Of a stretch of 64,000 nucleotides of DNA, positions 49,271 to 63,204 are shown in pieces. A program made the position numbers and the translations under genes. The notes under the pieces were generated by a model that saw only the letters and a program-made list of their open reading frames with translations, was not told the origin of the DNA and did not search any database. This DNA comes from Bacteriovoracaceae bacterium (lineage in GTDB: Bacteria > Bdellovibrionota > Bacteriovoracia > Bacteriovoracales > Bacteriovoracaceae): the NCBI GenBank assembly GCA_023701435.1, contig JAMPXB010000014.1, forward strand, positions 1 to 64,000. The letters are read 5' to 3'. Position 1 is the first letter of the stretch. Every line of letters starts with the position of its first letter.

Positions 49271-49399
49271 GCGTCCTTCAAAAATTGTCTTACAATTGAC
49301 ACCTATAAATTAAGTTTAGGAAATCATTAAGAAAAGATGGGGTCTGAAAATTGACACTAAGACTCGGTCAATTGTAAATTGGATTTCTTCGGAGGATCT

Positions 49400-50914
49400 A
49401 TGGACGACATGAATTTCCTGCATCAAAGCTTTGATGGATCACTTCTGGCGAATTTTCCGCCCATTATTGTCGTTGAAGACGATAAACTTTTGGGGCTCTC
49501 CCTTAAAAAATATCTCGAGCAGACTTTGAAATTAAAAGTCATGCTATTTTCTAGTTCAGAAGAATGTCTGAATTATTTCGGCCAGTCTCATCCCAAAGAA
49601 ACACCATTCTGTCTGGTGACTGACATCAGTCTGGAACAGGGATCTGACGGTCTGCTGTTAATTGATATTTTAAAAGACCGTGGATTTGAATTTGTATCAA
49701 TTGCCATGACTGGTTTTGCCAGTGTTGAGACCGCCATTGCTGCCACAAAAAAAGGTGTTTTTCACTACCTCACTAAACCTTTTGAGTTAGAGAATTTAAA
49801 GAAGCTGGTCATTCAGGCCCTGCAAACCAAGCTCTCTACTGTTTTCCCTAGAGAGATCATTAGTGAAGGTGAGGGTGTATTTACTGAGTCCCACCGGGCC
49901 CGCATCCCGTCTAAATTAAAGATTGATCGTCCGACGGTAGAAGATCAATTTGAAGGCATGATCGGCCGCTCAAGGGCGATGAAAGACGTTTTCGAGCGTA
50001 TCGGTAAAGTCGCTAAAACTGATTCTACTATATTGATCATGGGACCTTCGGGAACCGGCAAAGAATTGGTGGCTTCGGCCATCCACCGCCTCTCCAGTCG
50101 CGGTCAGAAAAATCGTGTTTCCGTGAACTGTGGTGCCATTCCAGGTGAACTTCTGGAGAGTGAGCTCTTTGGTCATGTCAAAGGTGCCTTCACAGGAGCA
50201 ATTTCCACCCGTAAAGGCCGTTTTGAAATGGCCCAAGGTGGGACGATCTTTTTAGACGAAATCGGTGATATGCCCCAGCTTCTGCAGGTAAAACTGCTAA
50301 GAGTTCTGCAAGAGCGTCAGATTGAGCCAGTAGGTTCTTCTGAAAATGTTCATATTGATGTCAGGGTCATTGCTGCGACCCATAGGGACCTGGAAAAGGC
50401 CGTTCAGGAAGGTAAGTTCCGCGAGGATTTATTTTATCGCTTGAATGTCATTCCGATCAGGATGCCGGCGTTGAAAGAGCGGCGTGAAGATATTCCTCTG
50501 CTTATCTCTCACTTTCTGGACCGATTTGTTTCTGCTGATAGATCCAATGAAATTAGCTTTTCATCGCTGACGATGGATCTTCTGATGGGCTATGACTGGC
50601 CTGGAAACGTCCGCGAGTTGGAGAATGTCATTGAGCGACTGGTTATTCTGCGGGGAGGAAACGAAATTCTCCCAGAAGACCTGCCGGCCAAAATCTTCCG
50701 CTCTAATCCACTGGCGACGAATCAATATAAGACCCTTTTTGAACTGCCCGAAGTAGGGGTAGATCTTAAACAGATCCTATCTGACATTGAAGACTCTTTA
50801 ATCAGACAGGCCATGAACCGTACTCAGGGAAATAAGAATCAGGCTTCCAAGCTGTTGACCCTGAATCGAACTACTCTGATTGAGAAAATGAAAAAGAAAA
50901 ACTTAGAAATCTAA
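49400..50914 (+). CDS. Sigma54-dependent response regulator (NtrC family)
   Basis: Receiver (VVEDDK, LVTDIS, AMTGFA, LTKPF), [21 protein letters not shown], Fis-type HTH; ATG at 49400 after GGAGG. Confidence 0.96.
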
Positions 50915-55278: not shown

Positions 55279-55511
55279 AACGAACCATTTTCAGCGGGTA
55301 ATAGTTGGTAACTAATATTTTAAGTTATTGTATTCCTTCTGGAAATGATGGTTGTGTCAAAGGTTCGACTGAACTTTTTTGCCTATGGGTAAAATTTGTC
55401 TTTTCCAAACTCAAAATGACGTTACAATGAATTTAGCAGGTAAAAAAGACCACATGAAGTGGTCGCGGTTATTATGACTGCAGCCTCAGTAAAGACAGGA
55501 AGTCTTCACGG

Positions 55512-58205
55512 ATGAAAATCTTATCAGCTTTTTTAATGACTATGTGGGTGGCCAGTGCGCTGACTGCTACTTCTGTTTTAGCTGACATCATTAATCAAGA
55601 AAACCTGAAGACCCACCTTCGTTGGAATCTCGTCGTTCCTCGTGATCAGTTTTATATTGTTAAACGCGGGCAGACACTTTTTATAGAGACCGTTAATCTT
55701 GAAATGTTTAAAACTCTCTCAGGAGAGATAGCCAGGCTTAACGCCAATCAACAATATATAGACAGCATTCAGTATTCTAAAGATGATTTTCCGGCCAAGC
55801 CGGCAACCATTGCAGTTAAGCTGAAAGATCCCTCGGTTGAACTTTTCTCTTTCTATCGAGACGCAGACAAAAAATACATTCTGGATTTTTGGATTAATGC
55901 AGATCTCATCACTTCGAGTCCTTCAGCTTTTCGCAAGCCTCTTCCTGTTCCGGCAGAAAATAAGCCAGTGAAAGTGGCCAAAAAAGCGGCTCCTAATAAG
56001 AATGCTCTTCTAACCAGAAAGAGCGCCATATTACCAGTAGTGGAAGTTGCTGCAGCCGATATCAAAGACCAAAAAGTTAATTCAGGGGTCAGGGACTATC
56101 GTTATGGGGCCAGTTTCCTATGGGACTATGAACCAATGATTCCTCAGCTGGAAAAAGACATAAATCTTCAATCGAAGACACCTGATGCGCTTTACCCTAT
56201 CGAAGATCGGGTTAACCTCGACGATGCCAAAGAAGCTCATATGCAGCTTTCAATTAATTTCTATCGGGAGCAGAAATGGGGGCTTATGAATAAGTCCATT
56301 TCACTTTATGAGAAGAAATATGGCAAAGATTCCAACTTTGTTTTTAATGAATTCATTAAGGCTAATGCTCTTCTGAAAGGTAACTTGGCCAAGCCCAATC
56401 GCGGAATTACTCAATCAGCCATGGTTCTTCTTTCCAATATTAAGGATATGACCAAAGAGTACGCCGTAAAGTCGGCTATTCTTCGTTATCTCATTCAGTA
56501 CAGTGTAGACATGAGAGATCATGTGAAGGCGCTGGAGTTATCGAAAGAATTGTATGTCGAGGCAAGAGGGGACTATGATCAGACGATGGTCATTCAATCG
56601 GCTCTTACTATTCTTCATTCTCTTGCCGAACTCAGACAAGTGGAAAAGATTGAAGCATTCTTGAATGAGAATAAAAAAATCGACAGTATCCTTCCTCCTC
56701 AAATGAGCATGGCCTACATGACTTTTGCCATGCTTTCCAAAGGGGAGACAGATAATCTGATTAAGCGTTACAAAATGGTAGAGAAGTCGCTCGCCAAACC
56801 AATACATCCGGCGATCCTCTACAATCTCGGTGAGAGTCTGTTCCGTCGCGGTGATTTTGAAGGTTCCATCAAAGCCTTTGATGAATTCATTGCCAATTAC
56901 TCTTATCTTCTCCAGGCTCCCCATGCCCGCCTGCGCCTGGCAACGGCCTATGAGTTGCTCGATCGTCCAACGGATGAAACCCTGGTTCTCTACAAAAATG
57001 CCATTGACCGTTCAACCTCTCCTGAAATTCGTTATGAGGCTAAGCTTCGTTATGTGGCGATGAATCTTCTCCGTAAAATCAGACCAACCGAAGCCGACAA
57101 AGAAACAGAAGTTTTCCTGGAACAGTCTCCTGATGAATCCAAGGCGCTTGATCTTAATTTGAAAAAACTTCTGTGGCTGGTACGGTTGAGACTGTTTATT
57201 ACCAACAAGGATTTTGATAAGGCCCTGGCCTATTTAACCACTATTCCACTGGACTCATTGAAGCCAGCTGAGAGACGGGTCTTTGAAGGTGACGGAGCTG
57301 AGATTGTTTACGGAATGATCCAGGATGCTTATCTCAAAGAGGACTACGCTAAAGTCGTAAAAATCTGGGAGATTTACAAAGACAAGTTTGAGACCAAAGT
57401 TGCCAGAAATGTTTATATGAATTTTGTTGTTTGTGATGCCTTCATTAAGCTTGGTCTTTATAAGAGTTACGATCGGGCGCTTGCCAGTCTTAAAAATGCC
57501 CAAAAAGAAGAGCCCCGGACATTTCCATTGTGGGTTGACCGTCTAAAAACAACAAATCTTGATCAGATGATGGAAGAGCTAACTCTCATCCGTTTAGTGG
57601 CGGACTCCAATTGGACTGAAGCTGAAGCCAAGTTGGCCTCTTATCCAGTGTCACTTAGGGACTCTTTGAACTATCCTTTTTACAGGGGTGTGATTGATTT
57701 CAATCAGAAAAACTACTCTGAAGCCATCCTCGAATTCGAAAAAGTACTCGTTAAACAGAATCCCGAAAATCAGCTGACTCCACGGCAAACAGCAGATCTT
57801 TTAATGGGTTACGTTGAGTCTTTATATCAGTTAAAAGACCAGGAACGTTTCAAGACAGTGGTCCGAGCGCTTAATGATGATATCGGCCGCTCAAAGTCGG
57901 CACCGATCTTGAATATCTCCGAGCGAATCAACTATCTCCTCATAGAAGCCTATGCGGGGGAGTTGAAGCCAGAATGGAAGGAGCTCGAAGTGATGACAAA
58001 GACGTTCAGGGAAAAATATCAAAAATCTCCTTACACTGCACGAATCGGCTATCTTTATGGGCTATCATTAATAAAGAATGCCAAAGTGCCTGAAGGGCGT
58101 GAGGTCTTTACCCTTTTAACAAATGATAAAGATGTTCCTTCTCACATTAAGGAAATGTGCAGGAGTGAATTGGCGACACTCGAACTGATAGAAAAGAAAT
58201 TATAA
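55512..58205 (+). CDS. Large TPR-repeat secreted protein preceding flagellar genes
   Basis: Signal peptide, 897 aa, multiple TPR-like segments (AILYNLGESLFRRGDFEGSIKAFDEFI). Confidence 0.8.
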   Translation: MKILSAFLMTMWVASALTATSVLADIINQENLKTHLRWNLVVPRDQFYIVKRGQTLFIETVNLEMFKTLSGEIARLNANQQYIDSIQYSKDDFPAKPATIAVKLKDPSVELFSFYRDADKKYILDFWINADLITSSPSAFRKPLPVPAENKPVKVAKKAAPNKNALLTRKSAILPVVEVAAADIKDQKVNSGVRDYRYGASFLWDYEPMIPQLEKDINLQSKTPDALYPIEDRVNLDDAKEAHMQLSINFYREQKWGLMNKSISLYEKKYGKDSNFVFNEFIKANALLKGNLAKPNRGITQSAMVLLSNIKDMTKEYAVKSAILRYLIQYSVDMRDHVKALELSKELYVEARGDYDQTMVIQSALTILHSLAELRQVEKIEAFLNENKKIDSILPPQMSMAYMTFAMLSKGETDNLIKRYKMVEKSLAKPIHPAILYNLGESLFRRGDFEGSIKAFDEFIANYSYLLQAPHARLRLATAYELLDRPTDETLVLYKNAIDRSTSPEIRYEAKLRYVAMNLLRKIRPTEADKETEVFLEQSPDESKALDLNLKKLLWLVRLRLFITNKDFDKALAYLTTIPLDSLKPAERRVFEGDGAEIVYGMIQDAYLKEDYAKVVKIWEIYKDKFETKVARNVYMNFVVCDAFIKLGLYKSYDRALASLKNAQKEEPRTFPLWVDRLKTTNLDQMMEELTLIRLVADSNWTEAEAKLASYPVSLRDSLNYPFYRGVIDFNQKNYSEAILEFEKVLVKQNPENQLTPRQTADLLMGYVESLYQLKDQERFKTVVRALNDDIGRSKSAPILNISERINYLLIEAYAGELKPEWKELEVMTKTFREKYQKSPYTARIGYLYGLSLIKNAKVPEGREVFTLLTNDKDVPSHIKEMCRSELATLELIEKKL

Positions 58206-58236: not shown

Positions 58237-59178
58237 ATGTTATCTCAAGGTTTAACACTTGTAGGCAATCATCCCAAATTCAACAGCGCTCTTGAGACTG
58301 CACGTAATGTTGCTGTCACTAAGACACCAGTGCTGATCTCTGGTGAAGCAGGGTCAGGCAAGAAGGCGCTTGGGGCGTACATTCACAACAACTCTGTGAG
58401 AAAGAATGCCCGTCTTGAAATCGTTGATTGCAGCTTAGACTCTCAGACTGTTGAGAAGATTGTTCTTGGTTACCGTGATGATGAAAGCGGCCGATTCAAT
58501 CGTGGAGTTCTAGAAGTTGCCAACGGTGGTACGGTAATTTTTGCCAACATTGATGCATTGGATGAAAATTTTCAGAAACGCATCTATACTATCCTTCAAG
58601 AGCTGCCAGACTATGAGCTAGACGTTCGCATTCTTGCTACCACTTCGAAAAATCTCTCAAAGCTCGTTGGTGCAGGAAAGTTCTCACGCGCACTTTATAC
58701 TTACTTCAATGGGGCGTCGATCGACATGATCGCACTTCGTGAAAGAGGAACAGACGTGGAATTGATTGCTCGTCATTTTATTGAAGAGTACGCAGCAGAA
58801 ACTCATGCTGGCGATATTTCACTTTGTGTAGATGCAGCCCGTAAGCTTACTGACTACAACTGGAACAACAATCTTTCTGAACTTAGATCCTTCATCCGTA
58901 AAACTCTATCAAACATGGAAGGCTCAACTCTTGACCTCCAGGCAATTGAGAAGGGCGAGCGTAAAGTTGAATTCTCATCTCATGAAACAGATGAAGATGG
59001 TCTTAAACTGATGTCTCTTAAAGATGCAGAAAAACTACTTATTAAAAAAGCATTGGTATTCACTTCAGAAAATAGAACTCAGGCTGCAAAAATCCTTGGA
59101 GTATCTATCCGTACATTGAGAAACAAAATCAATGAATACAGATCTGAAGGTGCCAGTTACTTTGTTAACTTACGATAG
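58237..59178 (+). CDS. Degenerate NtrC-type AAA+ protein with Fis-type HTH
   Basis: GEAGSGKKALGAYIHNN, NGGTVIFANIDAL, C-terminal RTQAAKILGVSIRTLRNKINEY; no GAFTGA. Confidence 0.9.
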   Translation: MLSQGLTLVGNHPKFNSALETARNVAVTKTPVLISGEAGSGKKALGAYIHNNSVRKNARLEIVDCSLDSQTVEKIVLGYRDDESGRFNRGVLEVANGGTVIFANIDALDENFQKRIYTILQELPDYELDVRILATTSKNLSKLVGAGKFSRALYTYFNGASIDMIALRERGTDVELIARHFIEEYAAETHAGDISLCVDAARKLTDYNWNNNLSELRSFIRKTLSNMEGSTLDLQAIEKGERKVEFSSHETDEDGLKLMSLKDAEKLLIKKALVFTSENRTQAAKILGVSIRTLRNKINEYRSEGASYFVNLR

Positions 59179-59208: not shown

Positions 59209-59616
59209 ATGGATGTAAATGACAAAACATTAAAAGCATTAACGACGGCGTTGAATTTCCGTGAGATGCGCCAAGAGCTCATCTCTTCCAACGTCGCCAA
59301 TGCCAACACTCCGGGCTTTAAGGCCAAGAAGATGGATTTCGAGGAAGCGTTGGCCCGTGCCCTGGATGTGGACGGTCAGATGCAGATGAATGTCAACGAT
59401 GGGCGACATCATACTGTCGGTAACGGTGGCTTCAATAATTTAGAACCTGAGATTTATGATAATCCAAACGGCGTGGTATCTGAAAATGGCAACACAGTGG
59501 ATGTGGAAGCTGAAATGGCAACCATGGCCGAAAACAAGTTGATGTACGATGCACTTGTTCAGTTGATCAATAAAAAGATGGGTATCATGAAGTACGCCAT
59601 TAACTCTGAGAAGTAG
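59209..59616 (+). CDS. flgB: Flagellar basal body rod protein FlgB
   Basis: LISSNVANANTPGFKAKKMDFE; N-terminal rod signature. Confidence 0.95.
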   Translation: MDVNDKTLKALTTALNFREMRQELISSNVANANTPGFKAKKMDFEEALARALDVDGQMQMNVNDGRHHTVGNGGFNNLEPEIYDNPNGVVSENGNTVDVEAEMATMAENKLMYDALVQLINKKMGIMKYAINSEK

Positions 59617-59625
59617 GAATAAAGA

Positions 59626-60066
59626 ATGGATTTACTCTCATCTCTTAGAATCAGTTCCAGTGGCCTTGCGGCCCAGAGAAAAAGAATGGAAGCCCATTCT
59701 TCGAATATTGCCAATGCTCAAACAACGAGGACTGCCGAAGGCGGTCCCTATCGTCGTAAAGAGGTGGTTTTTGGATCCGAGCCTGCCCGCGAAGCCTTTT
59801 CAGAAATCCTGGAAGGGGAGCTGGCTGAAAATGCTCAGACCGTACACGCCACTGAAGTGGTTCATTCTGATAAAGTCATTTATAAGCACGATCCATCCCA
59901 CCCTGATGCTAACTCTGAAGGGTATGTGGCGATGCCGGACATCAACCCGATGGTTGAAATGGCCAATATGATTGAAGCTCAGAGAGCTTACGAATCAAAC
60001 GTGACTGCGATCAATACGACCAAACAGATGGCCGTTAAAACATTAGAAATCGGAAGAGGTAACTAA
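59626..60066 (+). CDS. flgC: Flagellar basal body rod protein FlgC
   Basis: LRISSSGLAAQRKRMEAHSSNIANAQTTRT; NPMVEMANMIEAQRAYESNVTAIN. Confidence 0.96.
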   Translation: MDLLSSLRISSSGLAAQRKRMEAHSSNIANAQTTRTAEGGPYRRKEVVFGSEPAREAFSEILEGELAENAQTVHATEVVHSDKVIYKHDPSHPDANSEGYVAMPDINPMVEMANMIEAQRAYESNVTAINTTKQMAVKTLEIGRGN

Positions 60067-60425
60067 TGTCGATTAAAGATATTGCAGGTTTTCAACAAAC
60101 ACTTGGAACTGGCGATGCCCGTGGTTGGTCCCGTAAGGTTGACAATGATTTTGGCGGCCAATTTGGAATTGAAACTCCAGGAGTTGGTGGCACTGAAGAA
60201 ACGGGTAAAACATTCGGTGAATTCCTTCAGGATTCTATCGGTAAAGTGAACTCGCTTCAGCAAGACGCCAATGTTGCCATGGAAAAACTAGCTAGTGGTG
60301 AGAGTCAGAATCTGCATGAAACATTACTGGCCGTTGAAAAGGCCGATATTGCATTCAGAACAATGAATCAGGTTCGAACTAAAGTAATAGACGCTTACCG
60401 CGAAATAATGAAAATGCAGATCTAA
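60066..60425 (+). CDS. fliE: Flagellar hook-basal body complex protein FliE
   Basis: FGEFLQDSIGKVNSLQQDANVAMEKLASGESQNLHETLLAVEKADIAFRTMNQVRTKVIDAYREIMKMQI. Confidence 0.96.
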   Translation: MSIKDIAGFQQTLGTGDARGWSRKVDNDFGGQFGIETPGVGGTEETGKTFGEFLQDSIGKVNSLQQDANVAMEKLASGESQNLHETLLAVEKADIAFRTMNQVRTKVIDAYREIMKMQI

Positions 60426-60464: not shown

Positions 60465-62153
60465 TTGAATAATTTCATGTCCCAGACCCTGCAGAACTTC
60501 GTCGATTTTTTCCGGTCGCTAGATATGACCAGAAGAATTGGATTGATCGTTGTGGCAGGCCTCCTGGTAGCTTCCATGACAGGAATTGTCGTATGGTCAA
60601 GCAAGACTGATTACAAAGTACTCTATACTGAGCTCACCAAAGATGATTCGGCTGTCATCGCCCGGATGCTGGAAGAAGGAAAAATTTCTTACCAGGTCAA
60701 GGACGACGGTAAAACCATCATGGTGCCGGAAGATCAGGTTGAAATCTGGAGACTCGAGATTGCCAAAAAAGGCGTTAACTTCACCGGCACTGTCGGTTAT
60801 GAAGTCTTTGATAAACAGGCCTTCGGTACAACCTCCTTCGTTCAGAAAATTAATAAGCAGCGTGCCCTTGAAGGTGAGTTGGTTAAGACCATTATGCACA
60901 TTAAGGGTGTGACTCGTGCCCGTATCCACTTATCTATTCCTGAATCTTCTCCATTCGTCTCTGAGCGAAAGCCACCAGGAGCATCGGTTGTCCTTGATGT
61001 AGAGCGCGGTGTAACTATGACGGGTGATGAAGTAAAAGGCATTCAGTCTCTCGTCAGTTCTTCTGTTGATGGTATGCGTTCTCATAATGTTGTCGTTATT
61101 GATTCTCGTGGTAAAAAGCTATCTGAGAACGATGGGGATAACATGTCTACGGAGACTGCTAACCGCATCGCTCTCGAGACCAAGTTAAACTCACAATATG
61201 AAAAGAAAGTGGAAGAAATTCTTTCCCGTGTTATCGGTGAAGGAAAGGTCATTGCAAAAGTGGCCTTAAAAATGGATTTCACTGAAAAGTTTGAAACGCA
61301 AACGACCTATGATTCAGAAAATGCAGCGGTTGTTTCGGAAGTTCGTAATGAACAGAAAATGGTGGGGGTAAGACCTTCACCTCAAGGTATTCCTGGAGCA
61401 CGTTCTAACCTGCCGGGTGAAGCCCCTCAGCCGGGAATTCCTGAAACTCGTAATGATGTGGATAAGTCCCTGGTTACCAGAAATATGGCCGTACCAACAG
61501 TGGTCACCAAGTCAAAGAAGCCAACAGCGGAAATCTCCAGTATGTCGGTTGCAGTGATGGTTGACGGCAAGAAGGTGCCGGTTCTGGCAAAAGATGGCAC
61601 TCCGATGGTCAATGAAGACGGAGTTAATGTTACTAAGTATCAGGCATGGTCACAGGAAGAATTGCAAAACTTCCAGCAGATCGTGGGTTCAGCTCTCGGT
61701 ATCAATCTGAGCAGAGGTGATAAACTCGTTATCAAGAACATGGAATTTGCCAAAGAAGATCTGTCGGAAATGGAAGCTATCATGAGAGCGCGTGAGAACC
61801 GCGAGCTTATGAAAAATATCACTAAGTACTTGATGATCGGTGCTATAATTTCATTATTCTTCTTCATGGTTGTTCGTCCTTTCATCCAGTGGCTTACAGA
61901 GAACTCGGTTGAATCGATTGAAGACTTTCTTCCTAAGACCATTGAGGAATTAGAGAAGATTCAGGCCAATCAACGCCTGCCGGGTCTTGAAGATGTCCTT
62001 CCTTCAATTGAGGACAAGCTTAACCCTGAAAAGATTGAAGGGAATATGTTGCGAGAAAAAATTATTTCTCTTGTGGAGGCCAACCCTGGTAAAGCAGCTC
62101 AGGTCATCCATGAAATGATACATGTCGCTGATACACATAAAGAGATTGCGTAA
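60465..62153 (+). CDS. fliF: Flagellar M-ring protein FliF
   Basis: VLYTELTKDDSAVIARMLEE, KINKQRALEGELVKTIMHIKGVTRARIHLSIPE; TTG start. Confidence 0.97.
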   Translation: MNNFMSQTLQNFVDFFRSLDMTRRIGLIVVAGLLVASMTGIVVWSSKTDYKVLYTELTKDDSAVIARMLEEGKISYQVKDDGKTIMVPEDQVEIWRLEIAKKGVNFTGTVGYEVFDKQAFGTTSFVQKINKQRALEGELVKTIMHIKGVTRARIHLSIPESSPFVSERKPPGASVVLDVERGVTMTGDEVKGIQSLVSSSVDGMRSHNVVVIDSRGKKLSENDGDNMSTETANRIALETKLNSQYEKKVEEILSRVIGEGKVIAKVALKMDFTEKFETQTTYDSENAAVVSEVRNEQKMVGVRPSPQGIPGARSNLPGEAPQPGIPETRNDVDKSLVTRNMAVPTVVTKSKKPTAEISSMSVAVMVDGKKVPVLAKDGTPMVNEDGVNVTKYQAWSQEELQNFQQIVGSALGINLSRGDKLVIKNMEFAKEDLSEMEAIMRARENRELMKNITKYLMIGAIISLFFFMVVRPFIQWLTENSVESIEDFLPKTIEELEKIQANQRLPGLEDVLPSIEDKLNPEKIEGNMLREKIISLVEANPGKAAQVIHEMIHVADTHKEIA

Positions 62154-62166
62154 GTAGGAGTTGATC

Positions 62167-63204
62167 GTGGCCGAAGATAATAAATCATTAGAACCTGATG
62201 TGCAGTATGCGCTGTTGTCAGGACAGGAGAAAGCAGCAATCCTTCTTTCTGCTTTGGGGCCCACGACCACCAAGCTTATTTTTAAGCATATGAAAGACAA
62301 TGATGTTAAACGAATGATTAATACCATGTCCTCGCTCTCAAAATCTCCCATCTGGATGGTTAAAAAAGTTCTGGAAGAATTCTATTCTGCCATTAATGAA
62401 GACTCTGAACTTCTCTTCTCTGAAAACAAGGGTCGCGACTTTATTCTGGGAACGCTGGGTGAAGACCGCGCCAAGCAGCTCCTTGGTCAGATCGTTGACG
62501 TCGGTCAGTCCAATACGCTTGAATCGCTGGAGCTGGTTGATACCAGAACTCTTGCGAACTTCCTGATCAATGAACATCCGCAAACGATTGCCTTGATTTG
62601 TGCTCACTTGCCGGTAGAAAAGAAAGTGGATGTTTTGAGAAAACTTCCGGAAGGTCTCCAGGCAGAAGTTGTTCTTCGTGTGGCCAACCTCGACTTCGTC
62701 TCTCCGGAGCTGATTGCCCAATTGGATGACGTTCTTAAGACCGAGCTCTCAACTCTCGGTTCGATTGATACTCAACAGCTTGGTGGTATTGAGCCTATTG
62801 CAGATATGCTCAACCTTATGGATAAGAATTCGGAGAAAAATATCATGGCACGAGTTGAGGAGAAAGATCCTGAGCTTGCCGAAGAAATCAGAAAACTCAT
62901 GTTCGTCTTCGAAGATGTTATCTATGTGGACGATCGTGGTATCCAAGAGCTTCTTAAAATCGTTGATAACCAGAAATTGGTTATTGCTCTTAAGACTGCT
63001 CCTGATGATGTTAAATCAAAACTTTTCAAGAACATGTCAAACCGTGCGGCGACTCTTCTCAAAGAAGATCTCGATGCCATGGGGCCTACGAAGATTTCCG
63101 ATGTGGAGAAGGCTCAACAGGAAATCGTTCAGCAGCTTAAAGACCTTGAAACGAAAGGTAAGGCGATTATTTCCCGTGGTGGCGAGGGCGAGGCGTTCGT
63201 CTAA
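62167..63204 (+). CDS. fliG: Flagellar motor switch protein FliG
   Basis: SGQEKAAILLSALGP, NEHPQTIALICAHL, MFVFEDVIYVDDRGIQELL; GTG at 62167 after TAGGAG (track start TTG 62161). Confidence 0.95.
   Translation: MAEDNKSLEPDVQYALLSGQEKAAILLSALGPTTTKLIFKHMKDNDVKRMINTMSSLSKSPIWMVKKVLEEFYSAINEDSELLFSENKGRDFILGTLGEDRAKQLLGQIVDVGQSNTLESLELVDTRTLANFLINEHPQTIALICAHLPVEKKVDVLRKLPEGLQAEVVLRVANLDFVSPELIAQLDDVLKTELSTLGSIDTQQLGGIEPIADMLNLMDKNSEKNIMARVEEKDPELAEEIRKLMFVFEDVIYVDDRGIQELLKIVDNQKLVIALKTAPDDVKSKLFKNMSNRAATLLKEDLDAMGPTKISDVEKAQQEIVQQLKDLETKGKAIISRGGEGEAFV

Follow-up and report, generated by a model that had tools for sequence, protein, structure and literature searches.

Several bEBPs that lack the GAFTGA motif act at sigma70 promoters, including NtrC of Caulobacter and of R. 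capsulatus, VspR, TyrR, DhaR and HupR (PMC10274813, PMC3162934), and individual bEBPs (TyrR, HupR, Caulobacter NtrC) are already known to have lost contact with sigma54. These proteins, and VpsR too, retain the bEBP architecture and DNA binding but have lost the sigma54 loop. The flagellar bEBPs FlbD (Caulobacter), FlrC (Vibrio), FleR and FlgR combine an AAA+ core, a lid and a Fis-type HTH; FlbD both activates and represses, and its repression of fliF is exerted through ftr4 (PMC3930126). In Bdellovibrio, FliA has been proposed as the main attack-phase regulator (PMC3627812). Searching the literature on sigma54 flagellar control in Bacteriovorax and Bdellovibrio, we found no paper on the regulator described here or on a sigma54 layer of flagellar control in the phylum.

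The window analysed here is a stretch of 64,000 nucleotides from a Bacteriovoracaceae bacterium, and we refer to the product of its plus-strand open reading frame at 58237-59178 as DEG. DEG has the flagellar context, AAA+ core, lid and Fis HTH of FlbD, FlrC, FleR and FlgR but is without their receiver, GAFTGA, L2 loop, Walker B acidic pair and arginine fingers. Like the GAFTGA-less sigma70 bEBPs it has lost the sigma54 loop and kept its DNA-binding domain; unlike them, it further lacks L2, Walker B, both arginine fingers, the sensor-II Arg and a sensory N-terminal domain, and it has been eroded repeatedly, in several lineages, at a single syntenic flagellar locus. We propose, with a probability of about 0.7, that in Bacteriovoracaceae DEG regulates the early flagellar operon by binding DNA, independently of sigma54.

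DEG is an eroded bEBP with a conserved sequence

The reading frame opens with ATG and encodes 313 residues. DEG exceeds the Pfam cut-offs for all three of its domains (Sigma54_activat, 78.2 against 20.2 bits; AAA_lid_14, 43.1 against 27; HTH_8, 35.9 against 22), and together with the fold match described below this places it by descent in the bEBP superfamily; for comparison, Sigma54_activat scores 245 bits in the canonical copy in the window and 78 in DEG. Its best NCBIfam matches are bEBPs, with FlbD first, all of them far under their cut-offs, and with 153 bits, where the FlbD equivalog (NF050807) requires 750, it lies outside that family. An AlphaFold model built from a 50-row alignment (pLDDT 84) has FlrC as its best PDB fold match (4qht, E 2.4e-21); the top matches are the AAA+ domains of FlrC, NtrC1, ZraR and FleQ, and VpsR was also matched. 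The open reading frame, Pfam domains, orthologues, model and fold matches all describe an eroded, receiver-less bEBP.

When 291 genomes of the phylum were searched, 94 of the 97 belonging to the window's family (Bacteriovoracaceae, hereafter f1) yielded a DEG orthologue at 49% identity or more; the named relatives are Bacteriovoracaceae, Bacteriovorax and Halobacteriovorax. Two of the three f1 genomes without a match (G274 and G286) have no fliF match either, and in the third (G282) the contig ends just past flgC. Among 19 close relatives the median dN/dS is 0.073 overall, 0.066 for the AAA+ part and 0.034 for the HTH, values that indicate strong purifying selection; residues 1-7 are not conserved. 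The low value for the AAA+ domain despite the loss of catalysis indicates that this domain still does something, and since fold and HTH are both kept under selection, the AAA+ fold is retained for some reason other than sigma54 remodelling. Reading DEG as a pseudogene or frameshift is ruled out by 76 intact relatives and a dN/dS of 0.07, and sequencing error or gene decay as the source of its changes by the sharing of the loss among all 76 complete family orthologues.

Both sigma54-contacting loops and most catalytic residues are lost

The following residue counts refer to the 76 complete f1 orthologue rows, and all features lie on the plus strand and were placed by alignment. The preliminary description had claimed four motif replacements in DEG, with Walker A and the Fis HTH retained; all four are present (GYRDDESGRFNRG, FANIDAL, FSRALYTYFNG and YNWNNNLSELRSFI), as are both retained elements. 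Walker A reads GEAGSGKK (58342-58365; canonical GESGTGKE), and its core GxGK is invariant in 76/76 rows, as expected of an active bEBP, with K or R in place of the canonical final E across the whole family. The other features of an active bEBP are missing. GAFTGA is deleted in 76/76 rows, leaving the loop L1 remnant YRDDESGRFNRGVL (58471-58512). In Walker B (58528-58557, GGTVIFANIDA) the canonical D-E pair is replaced by A103-N104; position 103 is A in 60 of the 76 rows and mostly S, V or E in the others, and position 104 is N in 70, the pair mostly reading A-N or S-N. The arginine-finger segment FSRALYTYFNG (58681-58713) has lost both canonical arginines, and the lid/sensor II region (58855-58896) carries YNWNNNLSELRSFI instead of the canonical WPGNxREL, with the sensor-II Arg gone.

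Three further changes were absent from the preliminary description. The second sigma54-contacting loop, L2 (pre-sensor I), has lost 8 residues in 76/76 rows, with the deletion point between residues 122 and 123 (58600-58605). The "glutamate switch" pair is swapped from the canonical N/E to D64/N104, with D64 replacing the canonical N in 74/76 rows. Finally, a new arginine, Arg151, is invariant in f1 and lies one position past the lost first arginine finger.

Judged by these motifs, DEG is not one of the active sigma54-dependent bEBPs, and it cannot activate sigma54 in the known way; with both sigma54-contacting loops gone family-wide, the earlier statement that it cannot remodel the sigma54 holoenzyme in the usual way is well supported. 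Poor ATP hydrolysis, or none, is also well supported, as every catalytic element but Walker A is gone throughout the family. ATP could nonetheless be bound, and some of it perhaps slowly hydrolysed, because Walker A is conserved. At the C-terminal end, the Fis-type HTH (59008-59151; recognition helix LGVSIRTLRNKINEY) is almost invariant in f1, consistent with its dN/dS of 0.034, and f1, canonical and f6 rows all share the recognition helix SIRTLRNK[LI] without variation.

The regulator occupies one syntenic place ahead of flgB

Across the phylum the regulator lies directly upstream of flgB-flgC-fliE-fliF-fliG. In the window these genes follow DEG on the plus strand as flgB (59209-59616), which is the next recognised gene downstream of the regulator in 106 of the loci read, flgC (59626-60066), fliE (60066-60425) and fliG (62161-63204), all assigned by synteny or gene order, with fliF (60465-62153) identified by locus reading and genome search. 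The operon is headed by a gene for a secreted TPR protein of ~900 residues (55512-58205, plus strand; Pfam and synteny), and at almost every phylum locus read a protein of this size is encoded ahead of either the regulator or flgB. DEG had been described as heading the flagellar genes, which is nearly right: it stands directly before flgB, but the TPR gene precedes it and the operon promoter sits upstream of the TPR gene, not directly before DEG. Synteny and the HTH also speak for its being a flagellar DNA-binding regulator, and we conclude that DEG is orthologous, by vertical inheritance, to the FlbD/FlrC-like, receiver-less sigma54 activator found ahead of flgB phylum-wide.

A PDB sequence search with the TPR protein gave no useful match. 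One flagellar-operon protein of B. bacteriovorus has been called PflA-like from its domain architecture (PMC5758724), and the two may belong to the same family. The window also encodes a canonical response-regulator bEBP with GAFTGA (49379-50914, plus strand; Pfam, alignment and synteny), whose gene adjoins the TPR gene in several relatives and which is a candidate activator of sigma54-dependent flagellar genes. Two more bEBP-like proteins of the same genome, of 495 and 657 residues, are without GAFTGA (L088, G000:C42:23897-24358; L089, G000:C33:140846-141301).

Erosion has recurred across the phylum

Most families outside f1 encode at the same locus a protein of similar length with intact GAFTGA, D-E Walker B, both arginine fingers and WPGNxREL. 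Nearly all 24 orthologues from these families are intact (L095-L112 and L123-L128, of which L096 is slightly altered), in contrast to motif loss in 76/76 f1 rows. The exceptions differ in degree. In f6, which from our own reading of gene order we take to be Bdellovibrionaceae-like, L1 is lost and E-D or E-N stands for D-E, with the first finger Arg and WPGN mostly kept; one f6 relative (L283) has been reduced to a 141-residue protein with a lid remnant and the same HTH at its end. The f20 rows have GAFAGT, and their Walker B and finger arginines are changed; the loop is lost or altered in f12, and at seven loci (L140, L142, L144, L147, L148, L150 and L151) the regulator is absent and the TPR gene lies directly before flgB. 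In a distant family (f9, G017), the regulator right before flgB is 521 residues long with GAFTGA intact (L152:4287-5852), and an extra N-terminal domain may therefore be present.

On a tree built from FlgB, FlgC, FliE and FliF, a quick tree without a mixture model, f1 forms one clade (support 100) and f6 nests among intact lineages, in agreement with an earlier tree. A single clade of all non-intact rows was rejected (AU p 0.0031), and the nesting of f6 together with this test (p 0.003) rules out one shared loss for f1 and f6. If regain is excluded, at least seven separate erosions or losses are needed (f1; L140 with L142; f20; f12; L150; f6; L148 with L151); plain parsimony with regain allowed gives three changes.

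The f1 operon promoter has a tandem element instead of a sigma54 site

We scored -24/-12 matches of at least 14 within 400 nt upstream of the operon as sigma54 sites. Such sites precede 21 of 24 canonical loci, 7 of 8 f6 loci and 5 of 7 loci without the gene, as against 1 of 66 in f1; shuffled controls gave 0.4-1.4% in all four groups, so that f1 is at the shuffle level. Nor did a pattern search detect a sigma28 promoter in its place. The f1 promoters have instead a conserved element, GGnAAAAwTTTgCC-N5-6-RGnAAAATTTTCCTTT, followed after ~20 nt by TAnAAT (also written GGnAAAAwTTTgCC / AAAATTTTCCTTT with TAnAAT as -10), which was aligned in 50 f1 loci. In the window, on the plus strand, the operator-like site A reads GAACTTTTTTGCC (55371-55383; alignment A1, model R1), site B reads GGGTAAAATTTGTC (55387-55400; alignment and model), and a putative -10 box of a sigma70-type promoter, TACAAT, lies at 55423-55428 (alignment), with no -24/-12 match ahead of the operon. 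There is no recognisable -35 box under the tandem element, and site B adjoins the -35 region. A sequence-only model of the element (R1) has one strong match in the same genome (E 1.3e-13) and one in each of ten relatives. DEG shows three marks of GAFTGA-less sigma70-type regulators: GAFTGA lost, HTH kept, and a promoter of its own without a sigma54 site.

The f1 arrangement does not carry over to the canonical clades, where its matrix is found as a strict tandem in 3 of 24 loci at p<=0.05 and the element is weak (5 of 22 on the forward strand against 2.3 expected), though the recognition helix is identical. In canonical and f6 promoters another dyad, TGTCA-N4-TTTGTCG, which resembles an enhancer, precedes the -24 box by ~80-100 nt; since some loci that lack the gene still have this dyad, it is probably read by another activator. 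A composite promoter similar to that of f1 (TTGGAAAAACTTTCC..ATTTTCCTTT..GGTATAATG) also lies ahead of a putative ~75-nt small RNA (L167:1501-1680, G000:C33:127096 onward; L198:1501-1680), which has a GTGACA-GGA-TGTCAC hairpin with a CsrA-like GGA loop and a terminator and found no match in Rfam.

Sigma54 use persists elsewhere in the genome

The genome retains rpoN and several canonical bEBPs. The pattern TGGCAY-N5-TTGCW matches it 19 times, compared with 4 for the reversed pattern, and one match precedes flgF. A flgF sigma54 site scoring at least 15 is present in 7 of 12 f1 genomes (the other five are without a strong site) and in 3/3 f6 and 5/5 canonical genomes at slightly lower score; a sequence resembling site A precedes the flgF -24 box by 27-28 nt in 9 of the 12 f1 genomes. 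Sigma54-like sites were also seen ~171 nt from four contig starts (L219, L222, L228 and L230; G000 C24, C32, C45 and C49), each before a probable secreted protein and at near-equal distance, a pattern that would fit contigs broken at a repeat.

In f6, TTT[TG]CC occurs upstream of the -24 box in 25 of 29 loci with the gene and in none of 5 without it (Fisher 4.5e-4), or none of 8 when three other gene-less families are added (Fisher 1.3e-5), values to be read with the fact that the pattern was picked after viewing the sequences. Corrected for ancestry, with at most three independent pairs, the co-occurrence of gene and site is not significant. From proximity, Fis-like symmetry and co-occurrence, we consider it likely that DEG binds the tandem element.

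Discussion

By analogy, DEG may work like the GAFTGA-less sigma70 bEBPs and FlbD, as a flagellar counterpart of Caulobacter NtrC and TyrR. It would bind the tandem element through its Fis HTH; nucleotide, if bound, would not be hydrolysed and would have a structural or allosteric role. With Fis-family proteins DEG shares HTH_8, and its putative operator is an AT-rich dyad with flanking G/C, but the f1 protein carries a full AAA+ fold. Since the operon promoter has the tandem element where a recognisable -35 box would be expected, DEG would probably act there on the housekeeping polymerase in the manner of a class-II activator; at flgF a site of similar sequence immediately precedes the -24 box, and DEG bound to it could hold transcription back. 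A different bEBP of the canonical kind, for example that at 49379-50914, probably drives the other sigma54 flagellar promoters.

DEG could be an activator or a repressor. One variant of this explanation fixes the sign and has DEG keep only the repressing half of FlbD's function, as a repressor or autoregulator that binds the early operon promoter and shuts it down after the early parts have been made. There are precedents in the repression of fliF by FlbD through ftr4 (PMC3930126) and of its own operon by the GAFTGA-less NtrC of Caulobacter (PMC10274813), and site B adjoins the -35 region as the flgF site adjoins the -24 box; the missing -35 box under the element suits an activator better, however, and we regard the variant as possible but somewhat doubtful. 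The tandem element might also be read by another factor, with DEG acting elsewhere or being an operon passenger, as would fit the similar composite promoter found elsewhere in the genus ahead of a putative small RNA and the non-significant co-occurrence after ancestry correction. This seems unlikely, because the near-invariant HTH and low dN/dS speak against a passenger and the element is missing in 5/5 f6 loci without the gene.

Two other possibilities, both raised in the preliminary description, give the AAA+ part a different task. DEG could be a nucleotide or c-di-GMP sensor similar to FleQ or VpsR, its AAA+ part a ligand-binding switch over DNA binding; Walker A is invariant, the AAA+ dN/dS is 0.066 despite lost catalysis, and the fold matches include VpsR and FleQ. 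The c-di-GMP motif of FleQ is located in the region just before the AAA+ domain. DEG begins where its AAA+ domain begins, with seven non-conserved residues, and, judged by domain position, is without that region; in addition, one f6 relative has kept the HTH without the AAA+ part. We found no positive support for c-di-GMP sensing and think such a sensor rather unlikely. Least credible to us is an anti-activator that joins the rings of the canonical bEBP at 49379-50914, or competes for its sites, and so poisons sigma54 activation. The AAA+ fold and Walker A are indeed under strong constraint, the canonical gene is next to the operon in several relatives, and heteromeric bEBPs exist, as in HrpR/HrpS (PMC7057263), but we found no positive support for such a role. 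The recognition helices differ (SIRTLRNK and NRTTLIEK), the partner is not always adjacent, and in f6 the AAA+ part shrinks to leave a 141-residue protein while the HTH stays, so that the function conserved in f6 is not ring formation.

Returning to DEG as a sigma54-independent regulator, the loci can be arranged as a series: intact activator; loops damaged (f20, f12); ATPase residues lost and HTH frozen (f1, partly f6); lid remnant with HTH (141 residues); and gene gone. That this is a natural conversion series at one locus, and that in f1 the sigma54 promoter was swapped for a DEG-dependent sigma70-type one, putting early and middle flagellar genes under different sigma factors, is a tentative proposal to which we would give not quite even odds. 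What is new relative to the single bEBPs known to have lost sigma54 contact is that the same flagellar regulator has done so several times in one phylum, with a matching promoter change in one family. As intact, damaged, ATPase-dead, truncated and absent states stand side by side, the conversion of an ATP-driven activator to an ordinary DNA-binding regulator becomes testable, and the same series allows a test of the role of the AAA+ fold after catalysis is lost. The finding bears on the timing of flagella in the bacteria of this phylum, several of which are predators.
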